64,000 nucleotides of DNA, from the NCBI GenBank assembly GCA_002929055.1, contig PERY01000001.1, positions 152,855 through 216,854 on the forward strand, written 5' to 3'. The notes beneath the pieces were generated by a model. It was not told the DNA's origin, ran no database searches, and worked only from the letters and a program-made list of their open reading frames with translations. Source of the stretch: Methylocystis sp. GTDB lineage: Bacteria; Pseudomonadota; Alphaproteobacteria; Rhizobiales; Beijerinckiaceae. Position 1 is the first letter of the stretch. Every line of letters begins with the position of its first letter. Position numbers and translations under genes: made by a program. This document shows, one piece after another, positions 36,116 to 44,579 of this stretch.

Positions 36116-36997
36116 ATGACCAAGTTTCCTGTCGCCGCCGGCATTGCGCTGGCTCTCGTCGCCGGTTCGGCGCTCGCCGCCGACCTTCCGACGCGCAAGG
36201 CCCCGCCGGCCTATATCCCGCCGCCGCCCGTGTTCAGCTGGACCGGCCTCTATGGCGGTGTGAACGTCGGCTACGGCTTCGGCGACGGCACCATCTCGAA
36301 CGGCGGCTGGGCTTACATCTCACCGGCCGTCGGCGGCGGTCTTCCTGCGGGCGGCCTCTGGAACGTCCCCAACAATCTCAACGGCGTGACCGGCGGCGGC
36401 CAGATCGGCTACAACTATCAGTTCTCGCCCTGGTTCGTCATCGGCCTCGAGGCTGACGTTCAGGCCGCCGACATCCGTTCGGGCGGCACGGGCGCTGTCG
36501 GCGCCGCCCTTTCGGCCGTTCCTTTCGGCCCCCACTTCGCGTCGGTCAACGCCTCGCATCGCGTCGATTGGTGGGGCACGGTTCGCGGCCGTGTCGGCGT
36601 GACCATGCCGTCCTGGCCCAATCTCATGGTCTACGGCACGGGCGGCTTCGCCTATGGCGCCGTGAACCGCACGGTCAGCATGGTTGACGTCTTCACGGCG
36701 GGCGGCGCCGTCTCCGGCGGCGGCATCTTCGACAATACGCAGACGGGCTGGACCGCTGGCGGCGGCGTCGAATACACCCCGATGGCCTTCCCGTCCTGGT
36801 CGCTCAAGGTCGAGTATCTTTACACCGACCTCGGCTCGTCGCGCGTTCCGTTCCTGGGCGTCTTCACCGCTCCCGTCAACGGCCCGAACTTCGCAGCGGA
36901 GGACGTGGTCAGCACCCGCTTCCACACCGTCCGCGCTGGCGTGAACTGGCATTTCAACCCGTTCGCCCCGTCGGCGCCGGTGCTCGCGAAATACTAA
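36116..36997 (+). CDS. Outer-membrane beta-barrel protein, Omp25/Omp31-like
   Basis: A 293-residue protein with a signal peptide ending AGSALAADLP, a Pro-rich spacer (APPAYIPPPPVFSWTG) and LYGGVNVGYGFGDGT, the usual opening of rhizobial and Brucella Omp25/31-type eight-stranded barrels. Alternating aromatic strands such as VDWWGTVRGRVGV, LMVYGTGGFAYG and WSLKVEYLYTDLG follow, with a terminal NWHFNP strand. The last residues APVLAKY extend past the final barrel strand. GGGGG lies before the ATG and a strong terminator follows, consistent with an abundant single-gene transcript. Confidence 0.9.
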   Translation: MTKFPVAAGIALALVAGSALAADLPTRKAPPAYIPPPPVFSWTGLYGGVNVGYGFGDGTISNGGWAYISPAVGGGLPAGGLWNVPNNLNGVTGGGQIGYNYQFSPWFVIGLEADVQAADIRSGGTGAVGAALSAVPFGPHFASVNASHRVDWWGTVRGRVGVTMPSWPNLMVYGTGGFAYGAVNRTVSMVDVFTAGGAVSGGGIFDNTQTGWTAGGGVEYTPMAFPSWSLKVEYLYTDLGSSRVPFLGVFTAPVNGPNFAAEDVVSTRFHTVRAGVNWHFNPFAPSAPVLAKY

Positions 36998-37268: not shown

Positions 37269-38459
37269 ATGTCTGGCAGAGCGTCCCTCCTCCTCGCGAT
37301 CGTCGTGAGCCTCGCCGTCGGCGCCGCGCTGCCCGGTCTCTTCGGGAAGCTGCGCGGACCTGCGGCGCCCGCCGACGCCGGCGGAGAGTCCAGCGTCCCC
37401 GCCGAAGTGGACGGCCTCGTCAAACTCTCGCCCGAGCAGATCGAGGCCTCGAAGATCGGGACACTCGTCGCCGGCGGCGGCGTTCTCAAGCGCCAGATCA
37501 CCGTGCCGGCGTCAGTCAAGCCCGACCCCGACCATCTCGCCCGCGTCGCCTCCAAAGTCTCCGGCGTCGTCGCGGAAATGCGCAAGAAGCTCGGCGACGA
37601 GGTCGCGAAGAACGAGACGGTTGCGGTCATCGATTCGCGGGAGGTCGCCGACGCCAAGAGCGAATATCTCGCTGCGCTCGCCAATTTCGATCTGCAATCC
37701 AAGCTCTTCACGCGCGAGAAGGGACTCTTCGAAAAGAAGATCACCGCAGAGCAACTGTTTCTGAAGGCCAAGGCGACTTTCACCGAGGCCAGGCTGCGTC
37801 TCGATCTTTCGCGTGGCAAGCTTGCCGCGCTCGATCTCTCCGAAAGCGAGATCGCCGCGCTGGCGAATCAGCCGATTTCGCGCCTGCGCGAAAAGGAGCT
37901 GCGCGCGCCGATCAAGGGACGGATCATCGAGCGTCTGGTTAATCTCGGGCAGCCGGTGACGGCTGAGAGCCAGATCTATGTGCTCGCCGATCTTTCCGAG
38001 GTCGAAGTCGAGCTCGCCGTGCCGATCGCCAGCCTCGCCAGCGTGCGCCGCGGACAGCCGGTTTTCCTCAAGACGCCGCAGGGCCGCACTCTCGAGGGCG
38101 TCGTGCGCATGATCAACGCGGTCCTCACGCCCGAGACTCGCACCGGCCATGTCGTCGCCATGTTTGCGAACCCTGATCAGCTTCTGCATCCCGGCGGCGT
38201 GCTCAATGCGGAAATCACGCTCGAGCAAAGTCCCGTGAAGGTTCTGGTCCCGCGCGGGGCCGTTCAACTCATCCACAACGAGCCAACTGTGTTCGTGCGT
38301 GTGAAGGACGGCTTCAGGAAGCGCGCTGTCGAATTGGGAGACGGCGACGAGGGTTTTGTGGAGATCGTAAAGGGCCTCGCGCCCGGCGAAACGATAGCGG
38401 TGGAAAACAGCTTCGTGCTGAAGGCCGAGGCGGGAAAAAGCGAAATCCCCGAGGAGTGA
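37269..38459 (+). CDS. Heavy-metal RND efflux periplasmic adaptor (CzcB/CusB type)
   Basis: A 396-residue protein with an N-terminal membrane anchor or signal (SLLLAIVVSLAVGAALPGLF). Domains in order: barrel-sandwich half (VASKVSGVVAEMRKKLGDEV), an alpha-helical hairpin (residues 130-200, rich in Lys, Leu and Glu), the second lipoyl half (ELRAPIKGRIIERLVNLGQPV), a beta barrel (VEVELAVPIASLASVRRGQ) and a membrane-proximal C-terminus. It bridges the inner-membrane pump and the TolC channel. It starts a three-gene operon, 13 bases before the pump gene. No metal-binding His-rich N-terminus is present. Confidence 0.93.
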   Translation: MSGRASLLLAIVVSLAVGAALPGLFGKLRGPAAPADAGGESSVPAEVDGLVKLSPEQIEASKIGTLVAGGGVLKRQITVPASVKPDPDHLARVASKVSGVVAEMRKKLGDEVAKNETVAVIDSREVADAKSEYLAALANFDLQSKLFTREKGLFEKKITAEQLFLKAKATFTEARLRLDLSRGKLAALDLSESEIAALANQPISRLREKELRAPIKGRIIERLVNLGQPVTAESQIYVLADLSEVEVELAVPIASLASVRRGQPVFLKTPQGRTLEGVVRMINAVLTPETRTGHVVAMFANPDQLLHPGGVLNAEITLEQSPVKVLVPRGAVQLIHNEPTVFVRVKDGFRKRAVELGDGDEGFVEIVKGLAPGETIAVENSFVLKAEAGKSEIPEE

Positions 38460-38472
38460 CGGCTCAAAGATC

Positions 38473-41400
38473 ATGATGCAGCGGATCATCGCCTTTTCGG
38501 TCCATAGCCGCTGGCTGGTCGTGCTGCTGGTCGCGCTCGTCGGCGCGTTCGGCGTATGGGCGCTCGCGCATCTGCCGATCGACGCCGTTCCGGACATCAC
38601 CAACAATCAGGTGCAGATCAACGCCCGCGCGCCCGCCCTTTCCGCCTTCGAGATGGAGAAGCAGGTCACCTATCCTATCGAGAACGCCCTCGCCGGCATT
38701 CCCGGCCTCGACTATACGCGCTCGCTCTCCCGCAATGGCTTCGCACAGGTGACCGCGGTTTTCGCCGACGGCGTCGACATATATTTCGCTCGCCAGCAGG
38801 TGAACGAGCGGATCGGGCAGGCGCGCGAGGATTTTCCGCCCTCGATCGAATTGCGCGTCGGCCCCATCGCGACGGGCCTGTCCGAGATCTACATGTGGAC
38901 GGTGCGCTACAGGGAGCCCCACGCGCTCGCGAAAGCCGGCGAGCCCGGCTGGCAGAAGGGCGGCGCCTATCTCACGCCGGAAGGCGCAGAACTGCGTACG
39001 GCGGTGGAGAAGGACTCCTATCTGCGCACAGTGCAGGACTGGATCATCCGCCCGCAGCTGCGCACCGTTCCGGGCGTGGCGGGCGTCGATTCGCTGGGCG
39101 GCTTCGTGCGCCAGTATCATGTGCAGCCCGACCCGGCGAAGCTGATGTCGCTGGGTCTTTCGTTCGGGGATCTCGCGCAGACGATCCAGAAAAACAACGT
39201 CAGCCGCGGCGCCGGCTATGTGGAGCGCAACGGCGAGGGCCTCGTCGTGCGCAGCGGCGGCCGCCTCGAGACCGTGGACGACATTGGCGCCGTCGTCGCC
39301 ACGACGCGAAACGGCGTGCCCGTGCGCGTGCGCGAGATCGCCAGCGTCGCGATCGGCAAGGAGCTGCGCACCGGCAGCGCCAGCATGAATGGCGAGGAGG
39401 TCGTCATCGGCACCGCCCTGATGCTCATCGGCGCCAACAGTCGCACCGTCTCCGCCGCCGTCGACGAGCGCATGAAGACCATCGTCAAATCGCTGCCGCC
39501 GGGCGTCGAGGTGAAGACGATCCTCAACCGCACGCTGCTTGTCGAGGCGACGATCAAGACCGTCGCGAAAAACCTTGCGGAAGGCGCCGCGCTCGTCATC
39601 CTCGTGCTCTTCGTCATGCTCGGCAATTTTCGCGCGGCGCTGGTGACGGCGACGGTCATCCCCGTGACGATGCTGTTTCTGGCCATCGGCATGTATGTCG
39701 GCAAGATCAGCGCCAATCTCATGAGCCTCGGCGCTCTCGACTTCGGACTCATCGCCGACGGCGCCATCATCGTCGCGGAGAACAGCCTGCGCCGCCTTTC
39801 CGAGAGGCGGCAGATCGCCGGCCGTCCGCTCACCGCCGCCGAGCGGCATCAGACGGTCATCGACGCCGCTGTCGAGATGCGGCGGCCGACTGTCTACGGC
39901 CAGGCCATCATCATCCTCGTCTATCTGCCGATCCTGAGCTTTTCGGGCGTCGAGGGAAAGATGTTCCATCCGATGGCGATGACCGTGATCATCGCGCTGC
40001 TGTCGGAGTTTGTCCTCTCGCTCACCTTCTTCCCGGCGATGATCGCGCTCTTCGTTTCCGGGGGCGAGGAGGAGCATGAAAACAGGATCGTGAGCTGGCT
40101 GAAACGCGTCTACGAACCCCTCCTGCGTTTCGCCATGAACGCGCCCGTGCGGGTGATGATGATCGGGGCGGGCTCCTTCGTCTTCGCCGTGCTTCTCTAC
40201 ATGAGCCTCGGGCAGGAGTTCATCCCCAAGCTCGACGAGAAGAATCTCGCCATGCAGGCGAACCGCATCCCGAGCACGTCGCTGACGCAGTCCACGGCAA
40301 TGCAGCTCGACATCGAGAATGCGATACGCGCCTTGCCGCAGGTGGATTACGTCTTCTCCAAGACCGGCACGGCGGAGGTCGCGACGGACCCGATGCCGCC
40401 CAATCTCACCGACACATTCATCATGCTGAAGCCGGAAGAGAAGTGGCCAGATCCACATCTTCCCAAGGACAGGCTGATCGAAGACATCGACGCGAAGATC
40501 GAGCAGCTCCCCGGCAACGCCTATGAATTCTCGCAGCCGATCCAGCTGCGCTTCAACGAACTGCTTGCCGGCGTGCGCGGCGACATCGCCGTGAAGGTCT
40601 TCGGCGAAGATTTCGACGCCATGCTGAAGGCCGCCAATCACATCGCCGCGATCCTGCGCGCGACGCCCGGCGCGGCCGATGTCAAGGTCGAGCAGGTTAC
40701 GGGGCTGCCCGTGCTGGACATCAAGGTCGACAAGAACGCCATCGCCCGCTACGGCATCAGCCTCGGCGCCGTGCAGGATACGATTGGCGCGGCGATCGGC
40801 GGCGAGCCTGCTGGCATGATTTTCGAAGGCGACCGTCGCTTCCCGATTTTCGTGCGGCTGCGCGACAATCTGCGCGAAGACGCCGGCGCGCTGGAGACCA
40901 TACCCGTCTCTTTGCCGCCGGACGCGCAGGGCCACGCCCCCACGGTGCAGCTGAAACAGGTTGCGAGCTTTTCGACAGTCGACGGCCAGAACCAGATCTC
41001 GCGCGAGAACGGCAAGCGTCGTGTTGTCGTCAGCGCCAATGTGCGGGGGCGCGACATTGCTTCCGTCGTGACCGAAGCGCGCGCCAAAGTCGACGCCAAG
41101 GTGCAGATTCCGCCCGGCTACTGGATCGAATGGGGCGGGCAGTTCGAAAATCTCGCGGCGGCGCGCGCGCGGCTGATGATTGTCGTGCCGGTTTGCTTTT
41201 TCGTGATCTTTCTTCTGCTCTATTCGGCCCTCGGCTCGGCGCGCGACGCGCTGCTCGTCTTCACCGCCGTGCCGCTCGCTCTCTCGGGCGGCGTGCTGGC
41301 GCTGTGGCTGCGCGGCATGCCGATGTCGGTCTCGGCGGCTGTCGGCTTCATCGCGCTGTCCGGCGTCGCCGTGCTCAACGGCCTCGTCATGCGCACCTAT

Positions 41401-41691
41401 ATCCATCAGCTCATGGTGAGCGGCATGGCGGAGCGCGAGGCGATCTTCAAAGGCGCCATGACGCGTCTGCGCCCCGTCATCATGACGGCGCTTGTCGCCT
41501 CTCTGGGTTTCGTGCCGATGGCGCTTGCGACATCCACGGGCGCGGAAGTGCAGCGGCCCATCGCGACCGTCGTCATCGGCGGCCTCATCAGCGCCACGCT
41601 TTTGACGCTCGTCGTGCTGCCCGCGCTCTACGCCTTTTTCGGAGAGGATCAGGCGTCTCTCGCCGCTGCGCGTGCAAGGGAGGCGGCGTGA
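38473..41691 (+). CDS. CzcA/CusA family heavy-metal RND efflux pump
   Basis: A 1072-residue inner-membrane transporter with 12 membrane helices and two large periplasmic loops. AVPDITNNQVQINARAPALS and YTRSLSRNGFAQVTAVFADG near the N-terminus are HME-RND landmarks. Helix 4 reads LGALDFGLIADGAIIVAENS, preserving the DFG-x3-DGA-x4-EN pattern whose acidic residues carry protons in CzcA. The pump exports divalent (Co, Zn, Cd) or monovalent (Cu, Ag) cations; which one cannot be told, though the two-Asp-one-Glu set matches the divalent group. Its GTGA stop overlap couples it to tolC. Confidence 0.96.
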   Translation: MMQRIIAFSVHSRWLVVLLVALVGAFGVWALAHLPIDAVPDITNNQVQINARAPALSAFEMEKQVTYPIENALAGIPGLDYTRSLSRNGFAQVTAVFADGVDIYFARQQVNERIGQAREDFPPSIELRVGPIATGLSEIYMWTVRYREPHALAKAGEPGWQKGGAYLTPEGAELRTAVEKDSYLRTVQDWIIRPQLRTVPGVAGVDSLGGFVRQYHVQPDPAKLMSLGLSFGDLAQTIQKNNVSRGAGYVERNGEGLVVRSGGRLETVDDIGAVVATTRNGVPVRVREIASVAIGKELRTGSASMNGEEVVIGTALMLIGANSRTVSAAVDERMKTIVKSLPPGVEVKTILNRTLLVEATIKTVAKNLAEGAALVILVLFVMLGNFRAALVTATVIPVTMLFLAIGMYVGKISANLMSLGALDFGLIADGAIIVAENSLRRLSERRQIAGRPLTAAERHQTVIDAAVEMRRPTVYGQAIIILVYLPILSFSGVEGKMFHPMAMTVIIALLSEFVLSLTFFPAMIALFVSGGEEEHENRIVSWLKRVYEPLLRFAMNAPVRVMMIGAGSFVFAVLLYMSLGQEFIPKLDEKNLAMQANRIPSTSLTQSTAMQLDIENAIRALPQVDYVFSKTGTAEVATDPMPPNLTDTFIMLKPEEKWPDPHLPKDRLIEDIDAKIEQLPGNAYEFSQPIQLRFNELLAGVRGDIAVKVFGEDFDAMLKAANHIAAILRATPGAADVKVEQVTGLPVLDIKVDKNAIARYGISLGAVQDTIGAAIGGEPAGMIFEGDRRFPIFVRLRDNLREDAGALETIPVSLPPDAQGHAPTVQLKQVASFSTVDGQNQISRENGKRRVVVSANVRGRDIASVVTEARAKVDAKVQIPPGYWIEWGGQFENLAAARARLMIVVPVCFFVIFLLLYSALGSARDALLVFTAVPLALSGGVLALWLRGMPMSVSAAVGFIALSGVAVLNGLVMRTYIHQLMVSGMAEREAIFKGAMTRLRPVIMTALVASLGFVPMALATSTGAEVQRPIATVVIGGLISATLLTLVVLPALYAFFGEDQASLAAARAREAA

Positions 41692-43097
41692 GGAAAGAGC
41701 GCAGCGCCCTGCTCCTCGCGCTTTGCGCTCTCTCGTCGCCCGCGCATGCGGAGACGCTGAATGGCGCATTGCTGCGCGCCTATGGCGCCAGCCCGGTGCT
41801 CAACTCTTCCCGCGCGGGCCTGCGGGCGCTCGACGAAAAAGTCCCGCAGGCGCTCTCTACCATGCGGCCGCGCGCAAGCGCCGGCGCCTTCCTCGGCGCG
41901 CAGCAGAACCGCAACGTCCAGCGGCAGCTCGACATCGACCTCAACGATCCCACGGCGACCGCCAACACCAAGAGCATACAGTCTGGCGGCAGCGTCCCGC
42001 GGTCCGCCAGTTTCGCGATCGAACAGCCGGTCTTCGACGGCTTCAAATCGCAGAACGCCACACGCGCCGCGGAATCGGGCGTCTTTGCGGGCCGCGAACG
42101 GTTGCGCCTCACGGAGCAGCGCGTCCTGTTCGCCGCCGTTTCCGCCTATATGAACGTCCTGCGCGACACCGCCGCGCTGAAATTGCAGGAGAACAACGTC
42201 GCCGTTCTCGCCGAGCAACTGCGCCAGACCAAAGAACGCTACAACTATGGCCAGATCACCCTGACCGACGTTGCGCAGGCGGAGGCCCGCCTCGCCGCCG
42301 GCCAGTCGCTCATCGGGCAGGCGCGCGCAAACCTCGAAGCCAGCATCGGCGCCTATCGCCAGACCATCGGCGTGGACCCGAAAAAGCTTTCGCCCGGCAA
42401 TCCTGTCGATCGCCTGTTGCCGAAGACGCGCGAGGAGGCCGAGCGCGTCGCGCAGGCCGAGCATCCCGTCATTCTCGCCGCGCTGCATGACGCCGACGCC
42501 GCCGACATCGACATCAAGGTCATCGAGTCGGATTTCATGCCGAAGCTCTCGATCGTCGGCAACGTCTTCACGCAGACCGACATCTCCGGCATCTACAATC
42601 GCAACATCGGCGCGTCGATCGGCGGGCGACTCAACGTGCCGCTTTACGATGGCGGGATCACCTCCTCGCAAACGCGGGAGGCAAAAGAGCTCGCCGGCCA
42701 GCGGCGCCTCGACGTCGATGTCGCCCGCGCCGATCTTCTCGCCCTGGTGCGCGCCAATTGGGGCGCGCTGCAAGCCGCCAAAATCCAGATCGCCGCGGCG
42801 CAGACCCAGATCGCCGCCGCCGAACGCGCGCTCTACGGCGTGCGCGAAGAGGCCAAGGCCGGCCAGCGCACGACGCTCGACATCCTGAATGCGCAGCAGG
42901 AATTGCTGAACGCCCGCATCGGCCTGATCTTCGCCCAGCGCGAACGCGTCGTCGCATCCTACGCCGTGCTCGCCGCAATGGGGCGGCTCTCGACGCAGGC
43001 GCTGCATCTTGGGGAAGCGCGCTATGACCCCGCGGTCCATTTCGAGCAGGTGAAGGACAGTTGGGGCGGGATCGAAACCCCCGATGCGGGGCGTTGA
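41688..43097 (+). CDS. TolC-family outer-membrane channel protein
   Basis: GTG 41688 overlaps the pump stop codon; 469 residues with a signal peptide ending SSPAHAETLNGAL. It carries two TolC/OEP repeats: FAIEQPVFDGFKSQNATRAAESGV and, in the second half, GGRLNVPLYDGGITSSQTREAKEL. The LKQTKERYNYGQ-like stretch (RQTKERYNYGQITLTDVAQAEARL) and KAGQRTTLDILNAQQELLNARI are characteristic of the classical TolC subfamily used with type I secretion and RND pumps, rather than the CzcC subfamily usual for metal pumps. As the third gene of the operon it completes the tripartite efflux system. Confidence 0.94.
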   Translation: MRKERSALLLALCALSSPAHAETLNGALLRAYGASPVLNSSRAGLRALDEKVPQALSTMRPRASAGAFLGAQQNRNVQRQLDIDLNDPTATANTKSIQSGGSVPRSASFAIEQPVFDGFKSQNATRAAESGVFAGRERLRLTEQRVLFAAVSAYMNVLRDTAALKLQENNVAVLAEQLRQTKERYNYGQITLTDVAQAEARLAAGQSLIGQARANLEASIGAYRQTIGVDPKKLSPGNPVDRLLPKTREEAERVAQAEHPVILAALHDADAADIDIKVIESDFMPKLSIVGNVFTQTDISGIYNRNIGASIGGRLNVPLYDGGITSSQTREAKELAGQRRLDVDVARADLLALVRANWGALQAAKIQIAAAQTQIAAAERALYGVREEAKAGQRTTLDILNAQQELLNARIGLIFAQRERVVASYAVLAAMGRLSTQALHLGEARYDPAVHFEQVKDSWGGIETPDAGR

Positions 43098-43170: not shown

Positions 43171-43653
43171 ATGCGAGGCGCTTATCTGAAACTTTTCGCC
43201 CTTGCGCTCGTCGCCGCGCCCCTGACCGCGGGACCGGCGCAGGCCATTTGCTGGCTCGGCTGTCCGGACCCGACAGAGGAGCAGGCCAAGAAAATTCTGG
43301 AGAATCTTCTCAAGCAGCGCTTCGACAAGCCGGCCAGGATTCTCGAATTCAAGCAGACGATGGCCGAGAAGCTCGAGATGCACGCCACGGGCGAGAAGGG
43401 CTATGAAATCTTTTTCAGCGCCAAGGTCGCCTTCCCGGAAGGCGCCAATCTCGAGTGCAAGCCCGACGACGCCGGAACGTTCAAGGAAGGCTGCTCGCCG
43501 AGCAAGCATTACGTCACGGCGCCGAGGAGCGCCGATCCGAAAGGCAAGCAATATGTCGCGCCGGGGGAAACGGTGACCTTCGAAGAGGAATATCGCTTCT
43601 ACGAAGACCCCAAGGGCTGGAAAGGTCCGGACGGCGCCGTCTATTCGCAGTAA
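43171..43653 (+). CDS. Exported protein of unknown function
   Basis: Start at ATG 43171 (after GAGGAAT) gives 160 residues with a signal peptide, MRGAYLKLFALALVAAPLTAGPAQAICW. The mature protein begins CWLGCPDPTEEQAKKIL and has further Cys in NLECKPDDAGTFKEGCSPS, so two disulfides are likely. The rest is charged and beta-rich. No motif recognised. It may be transcribed after the efflux operon (73-base gap) or alone; a metal-related role would be a guess based on position only. Confidence 0.75.
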   Translation: MRGAYLKLFALALVAAPLTAGPAQAICWLGCPDPTEEQAKKILENLLKQRFDKPARILEFKQTMAEKLEMHATGEKGYEIFFSAKVAFPEGANLECKPDDAGTFKEGCSPSKHYVTAPRSADPKGKQYVAPGETVTFEEEYRFYEDPKGWKGPDGAVYSQ

Positions 43654-43654
43654 G

Positions 43655-43688
43655 CCAAAAATTATGGGCGCGCATGGACTGCGCGCCC
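43655..43688 (-). terminator. Terminator of small Cys-protein gene 1 (minus strand)
   Basis: On the minus strand GGGCGCGCA / TGCGCGCCC with a five-base loop is followed by ATAATTTTT. Its stem is identical to the stem of the terminator after the paralogous gene at 44346. Confidence 0.88.
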
Positions 43689-43735
43689 GTGAATTTGCAA
43701 ATCCTCTCCTTTTCGAGGAAGAGAGGCCGCCGCGA

Positions 43736-43990
43736 TTACTTCATCGGATGGCGCTTGTCGAGTTCCGAGCAGCCAGCCTTGGCGTTGCAGGCATAGAATT
43801 CCTCGTAGACCGTCGACCTCGTGTCCTGCACGCCGTTGTCGTTCTGGCGGCGGAGGAAGGCGTCTTCGCACTTTTCGGCGGCCGCCGCCTGCTTGTCCTC
43901 GTCGGCATTGCGGGTGTCGCAACCGGCGAAAGCAGGGGTCATCATGCCGGCAATCATGGCAGCCGCCGCAACGAAGGCGAATTTATTCAT
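43736..43990 (-). CDS. Small secreted Cys-containing protein, paralogue 1
   Basis: An 84-residue protein with a clear signal peptide (MNKFAFVAAAAMIAGMMTPAFAG). The mature part starts CDTRNADEDK and contains four cysteines in the order CDTR, KCED, ACNAK and GC. It is highly charged with no membrane span. The gene 44346-44579 encodes a similar protein on the same strand and has a matching terminator, so the pair arose by tandem duplication. I recognise no family; candidate roles such as metal buffering or periplasmic stress are speculation. Good RBS (GAGGAAACG) upstream. Confidence 0.8.
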   Translation of the reverse strand: MNKFAFVAAAAMIAGMMTPAFAGCDTRNADEDKQAAAAEKCEDAFLRRQNDNGVQDTRSTVYEEFYACNAKAGCSELDKRHPMK

Positions 43991-44271
43991 CTCTGCGTTT
44001 CCTCTTCTTCGATTTTGGGGTTTCTTGCTTGCGCAGGCGTAGTAGCCTCCCGCCCATTCAGTAACGGCCCCTCATAACGCGCAAAGCGGCGGGACGATGC
44101 GTGAAGAATTACGCTCTGTCAATTCGCGCGCTCGAAATATGCCGCTTTCCCCGCCCGAAAGGAGGCGGCGGGCGTATACCTGCGGCGATATGCGCAACGT
44201 GAATTCAGGGGTGTTTTCGCGCGGCGCCTTTTTCTTCGCATGGCGCCGCTCAAAGGATCAACCCTGGCGCC

Positions 44272-44301
44272 AAAAGAAAAGGGCGCGCAAACTGCGCGCC
44301 C
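44272..44301 (-). terminator. Terminator of small Cys-protein gene 2, within the 355-base gap between the paralogues
   Basis: On the minus strand GGGCGCGCA / TGCGCGCCC folds into a stem followed by TTTTCTTTT. The 355-base gap (43991-44345) otherwise holds the promoter of paralogue 1 and no gene that I can support. Confidence 0.88.
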
Positions 44302-44345
44302 TGTCCTGTCCTGTCCTGCGGCTCGCGCCGAGAGCGAAGGCGCCC

Positions 44346-44579
44346 TTAGAGATCCTTCGAATTCTCCGGGCAGCCGCACTTGGCGTCGCAGGCCTTCTTG
44401 TCGGCCTTAAGCTGGGCGTGGTCGGCCATCATGTCCTGCTTGTGGCGAACATAATTGTCTTCGCAGCCGAGCGCGCAAACGGCCTGATCGTCTTCCTTGC
44501 GCGTGTCGCAGCTCGCGAAGGCCGGCACGGTCATCGCCGCGAAGAGAGCAATGGCAGTGGCTATGGAGAACGTCTTCAT
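44346..44579 (-). CDS. Small secreted Cys-rich protein, paralogue 2
   Basis: A 77-residue protein with signal peptide MKTFSIATAIALFAAMTVPAFAS and a mature part of some 54 residues starting CDTRKEDDQAVCALGCEDNY. It has six cysteines against four in paralogue 1; the shared framework is CDTR, CED, AC-x-AK and GC. The two extra Cys (QAVC and AKC) could form a third disulfide or a metal site. RBS GAGGAAA precedes the ATG. Upstream is the acnA 3' end in the same direction. Function unknown. Confidence 0.82.
   Translation of the reverse strand: MKTFSIATAIALFAAMTVPAFASCDTRKEDDQAVCALGCEDNYVRHKQDMMADHAQLKADKKACDAKCGCPENSKDL

Follow-up and report, generated by a model that had tools for sequence, protein, structure and literature searches.

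Plant alpha-hairpinins are helix-loop-helix peptides with the cysteine motif C1X3C2XnC3X3C4, where n is about 4-20, and occur in four- and six-cysteine forms (PMC11591084). Csp copper storage proteins carry CXXXC motifs on helices and bind Cu(I) through them (PMC5171941). Two CX3C motifs on two helices are also found in the small TIM proteins Tim9 and Tim10.

We analysed a 64,000-nt stretch of a Methylocystis sp. genome (contig PERY01000001.1; hereafter the window) that holds two tandem minus-strand genes for small exported cysteine proteins (Table 1). A sequence-only reading of the window had singled out positions 43655-44579, a range that takes in both genes and the hairpin following each of them. 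As it proposed, the adjacent genes encode signal-peptide proteins sharing a CDTR, CED, AC-x-AK and GC framework, and the mature parts of the products of gene 1 (P0002) and gene 2 (P0001) have six and four cysteines, respectively. The two proteins are 41% identical (E=1.6e-11), and by this comparison they are homologous and paralogues of each other. Their Sec-type signal peptides are typical and end in A-F-A, and both are acidic (pI 5.1 and 5.0; ~6-7 kDa). Across the family the signal peptide is conserved. The first cysteine, C1, does not sit in a lipobox, since S, D, T or E usually precedes it. By eye, each gene has in front of it a conserved promoter-like region of its own and a Shine-Dalgarno sequence (AGAGGAAA/GAGGAAAC); a promoter motif common to both genes was considered and rejected.

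Table 1. The gene pair and neighbouring features, in positions of the window.
Feature	Position	Strand	Description	Basis
Heavy-metal RND efflux operon	37269-43097	+	Adaptor 37269-38459; CusA/CzcA 38473-41691; TolC-like to 43097	
c3	43171-43653	+	Exported protein of 160 aa with a CWLGC start, convergent with the pair; follows the RND operon as the last gene	
Hairpin between gene 2 and c3	43666-43688		Stem GGGCGCGCA/TGCGCGCCC	
Gene 2 (P0001)	43736-43990	-	84 aa; four-Cys paralogue lacking C2 and C5	
Gene 2 signal peptide	~43925-43990	-		
Hairpin after gene 1	44280-44302	-	Stem AGGGCGCGCA/TGCGCGCCCT, loop GTT, then TTTCTTTT	
Gene 1 (P0002)	44346-44579	-	77 aa; six-Cys twin-CX3C secreted protein	Translation, family alignment A3, AlphaFold
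Gene 1 signal peptide	~44514-44579	-	Mature P0002 ~55 aa	

The family is undescribed. Neither P0002 nor P0001 has an above-cut-off match in Pfam or NCBIfam, none of 38 relatives has one in Pfam, PDB searches gave no significant match, and a literature search found no publications on the family. This agrees with the earlier suggestion that no described family has the pattern, and the framework, sought in other genomes, is present in many. We find the family in 37 of 39 Methylocystis genomes, including all 30 of good quality, and in named Methylosinus genomes. Among genomes of the genus the usual arrangement is this tandem pair, two copies about 550-620 bp apart, with one, three or four copies in some. 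Across 149 genomes sampled from the wider taxonomic family, full-length matches are confined to Methylocystis and Methylosinus. A profile search of 398 genomes of the order and 385 of the class (overlapping samples) yielded nothing further beyond chance matches and matches to signal peptides; the weak ones (L047-L049, L090) were rejected because they share only the signal peptide or lie where there is no plausible gene. In the same 149 genomes, pMMO (PF02461) occurs in three genera, two of them Methylocystis and Methylosinus. Because the third genus lacks the present family, the family's distribution follows lineage rather than methane oxidation as such. Between orthologues dN (0.01-0.46) is well below dS (mostly 0.4 to saturated), a sign of purifying selection. 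An undescribed family thus forms part of the core gene set in one of the major genera of methane consumers, and is so far confined to that genus and its sister. As a separate observation, the window's own genome and one other Methylocystis genome (G057) have no pmoA (PF02461) match, where other members have two or three; possibly the repeated pmo operons fell into an assembly gap.

In a 38-member alignment (A3) the framework reads C1-(10-12)-C2xxxC3-(about 24-29)-C4xxxC5-x-C6, with a spacing of 24 between C3 and C4 in P0002. All rows have C1, C3, C4 and C6; C2 and C5 vary as a unit, each row having both or neither. In a tree built from this short alignment, with many forks unresolved, the four-cysteine proteins form one clade (100/100) nested within the gene-2 group. 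Because that group is otherwise six-cysteine, the six-cysteine state is most likely ancestral on this sequence evidence, with C2 and C5 lost together once, as a single evolutionary event. Loss of exactly these two residues is what would be expected if C2 and C5 form one disulfide. One paralogue having shed a complete putative disulfide staple, the pair amounts to a natural experiment.

Within its clade, the window's gene 2 has diverged furthest (branch 1.28). Within its protein (43739-43924) the middle is far more divergent than in any orthologue and carries an in-frame insertion; a frameshift was considered as the cause and rejected, with the insertion found instead and no double frameshift evident. 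Some relatives have a short form that ends at C-G-C and carries an N-terminal extension behind the signal peptide (L076-L078, L082, L028-L030). Several matches appear to have a TGA inside them, at K-C-G-C-TGA. Selenocysteine was rejected here, as sequence past the TGA is not conserved among close relatives; the alignment simply overruns one column into the stop, so K-C-G-C-TGA marks the C-terminus. The short form is near-identical on two replicons of Methylocystis rosea (L077, L078), beside a PHA synthase-like gene. A contig labelled Gammaproteobacteria (L080) encodes a mature part identical to these copies and has the same neighbours, and it is probably mis-binned.

AlphaFold predicts the mature six-cysteine protein to be an alpha-hairpin with helices at 9-25 and 32-46 (mean pLDDT 85.9, pTM 0.66). 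Arithmetic on the model's helices gives an antiparallel register (C13+C46 = C17+C42 = 59), in which C2/C5 and C3/C4 are predicted to be aligned for two cross-helix disulfides. The four-cysteine form is also modelled as a hairpin, more weakly and with moderate confidence (pLDDT 69). A fold search of the PDB returned no significant structural neighbour.

Our preferred reading, to which we give about an even chance, is that the pair encodes Sec-exported, acidic, disulfide-stapled hairpins that serve in the periplasm as a binding or chaperone-like module, with terminators inherited with the genes. Both proteins would be exported through Sec and lose the signal peptide at A-F-A. The six-cysteine form would fold as an antiparallel two-helix hairpin in which the twin CX3C forms two cross-helix disulfides, C2-C5 and C3-C4, and C1-C6 clamps the ends. 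The four-cysteine paralogue would be a derived copy from which the whole C2-C5 staple has gone, and the two paralogues may have diverged in stability or partner. Such a hairpin would be constitutive and non-enzymatic, binding or acting as a chaperone for an envelope or secreted partner, and each gene would end in a strong intrinsic terminator.

The earlier reading also pointed to the neighbouring metal efflux operon; a role in metal handling is not supported by this neighbourhood. In Methylocystis the gene order is MFS - acnA - gene 1 - gene 2, followed by the convergent c3 - TolC - CusA/CzcA - adaptor - porin, and the RND operon adjoins the pair throughout the genus. The operon runs convergently to the pair and belongs to a different transcription unit. 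Methylosinus relatives lie between what we take, by sequence recognition, to be thiC and mogA/dapB, and a short form ending in CGC adjoins genes recognized in the same way as cysS/hom. Other divergent copies are near genes that are presumably PHA synthase, purB, SCO1/multicopper oxidase or CopCD-PCuAC. Copper genes recur near divergent copies without a consistent pattern, and the metal link is weak.

A periplasmic binder of copper or another metal, holding Cu(I) by helix-borne CX3C thiols and working with the RND pump or copper-uptake genes, strikes us as rather unlikely. It would have a precedent in the Csps of the same bacteria, which hold Cu(I) by helix CXXXC motifs (PMC5171941). The constant neighbourhood of the CusA/CzcA operon in Methylocystis fits it too, as does the position of divergent members near SCO1/multicopper oxidase (L076), a CopC-CopD-PCuAC cluster (L082) and a multicopper oxidase-like gene (L070). 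However, the pair lies outside the pump's operon, and Methylosinus relatives and short forms sit beside thiC, cysS/hom or PHA synthase. The joint disappearance of C2 and C5, more in keeping with a disulfide than with a four-thiolate site, and the absence of any conserved His or Met from the family further disfavour a metal store; moreover, neither the window proteins nor the 38 members match the Csp model (DUF326) at E<=1. Periplasmic thiols are, in addition, normally oxidised.

The small secreted twin-CX3C hairpin also brings to mind an alpha-hairpinin-like antimicrobial or a protease- or lysozyme-inhibitor peptide released outside the cell, a role we consider quite improbable. Four- and six-cysteine forms are likewise known among the plant peptides (PMC11591084), and there is a very weak match to the phage Spackle periplasmic family (E=0.07). 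Against this, the proteins are acidic, at a pI of about 5, and not cationic, the gene belongs to the genus core, is held by purifying selection and has no evident immunity gene linked to it, and the C3-C4 spacing exceeds the 4-20 residues of alpha-hairpinins. An antimicrobial peptide is disfavoured because of its acidity, its core-gene status and the missing immunity partner. Searches of phage and viral collections gave no match, which counts further against such a peptide and led us to reject phage or viral origin. We infer that a periplasmic binding or chaperone-like role is the most likely of the remaining functions.

Both genes end, as described beforehand, in a hairpin with an identical stem of 9 bp, GC-rich and followed by a T-rich tail, which for the hairpin at 43666-43688 is a minus-strand T-run on the gene 2 side. 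The two hairpins fold with z = -3.9 and -4.2 relative to dinucleotide shuffles. The exact stem occurs only at these two sites in the 3,012,063-bp assembly, and the 8-bp stem core with a loop of 3-8 at three (one besides the pair), so the sharing exceeds chance. The stem core GGGCGCGC is present 3' of most gene 1 and nearly all gene 2 copies in Methylocystis, mostly with T-runs after the stem and with loops that vary freely. It also lies 3' of a Methylosinus relative at a different genomic place, there without a T-run, and is otherwise rare in these genomes. Most neighbouring genes, examined as a control, have no conserved hairpin. One that does is the porin gene that precedes the RND operon (36116-36997), whose own terminator stem AAGCCCGGCC is kept across species.

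These data bear on the further suggestion that the genes were duplicated with their terminators. Recurrence of the core behind both paralogues across Methylocystis, and behind the relative in Methylosinus, supports it in part. However, the duplication is old and the porin stem is likewise kept, so much of the stem conservation is ordinary terminator conservation. We regard the shared stem mostly as a strong, ordinary intrinsic terminator that has descended along with the genes, and allow some room for a further role. We see a very slight chance that it is more than a terminator, namely a dedicated regulatory element of the 3' end to which, for instance, an RNA-binding protein would bind. The persistence of GGGCGCGC after both paralogues in most species, its rarity elsewhere and its retention without a T-run in Methylosinus would suit such an element. 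The T-runs of most Methylocystis copies argue against it, as do a compensatory change in one genome (G017; GGGGCGTGCA/TGCACGCCCC) that keeps pairing but not sequence, the conserved porin stem nearby, and the absence of the stem from several divergent family members.

The convergent gene c3 belongs to a separate, second undescribed family of secreted proteins with CxxxC or CxxxxC at the mature start, and it has no match in Pfam, NCBIfam or PHROG. Its family (loci L109-L138), with two to four copies per genome, and the hairpin family are found in an identical set of genomes, 11 of the 149, and these matching distributions suggest a lineage-specific envelope trait in a genus that can be cultured. 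Elsewhere, copies of c3 have as neighbours a lytic transglycosylase-like (mltB-like) gene, leuB or secG/pyrG; c3 was rejected as a copper gene, its paralogues being mostly in these places. A more specific version of the chaperone idea would make the hairpin a small-TIM-like chaperone or assembly factor of independent origin, serving envelope or intracytoplasmic-membrane proteins in the periplasm of type II methanotrophs with c3 as its partner. We consider this very unlikely.

Several described families resemble parts of this design. DUF2116, a probable treble clef, scores 10.4 bits with a window protein against a gathering threshold of 26.8, and its best E among the 38 members is 0.012. Csp1 and Csp3 of Methylosinus come from the same bacteria and carry CXXXC on helices. 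They are, however, DUF326-type four-helix bundles with a cysteine-lined core and many more cysteines, Csp1 being Tat-exported, whereas the present family has two main helices and at most six cysteines. Tim9 and Tim10 were the top PDB profile matches, at non-significant values (E=0.17 and 0.67), and no small-TIM Pfam match was found among the 38 members. The family shares the two CX3C motifs on two helices with small TIMs, but the halves are swapped in the match, the spacing is longer and the proteins are Sec-exported in a bacterium; PDB profile and Pfam searches yielded no evidence of common descent with small TIMs or of hexamers. Like alpha-hairpinins, these are small secreted proteins with a twin CX3C on two antiparallel helices, as predicted here, in four- and six-cysteine forms. 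They differ in being bacterial and acidic, with a C3-C4 spacing of 24, additional cysteines at both ends and no sequence match found. P0002 has CX3C twice but with n = 24, and in the four-cysteine paralogue neither CX3C is intact. Plant alpha-hairpinins and small TIMs are the nearest designs, and by cysteine spacing and sequence the family falls outside both. Should the hairpin and its disulfides be confirmed, it would show in a bacterium an architecture otherwise familiar from the defence peptides of plants and the chaperones of mitochondria.
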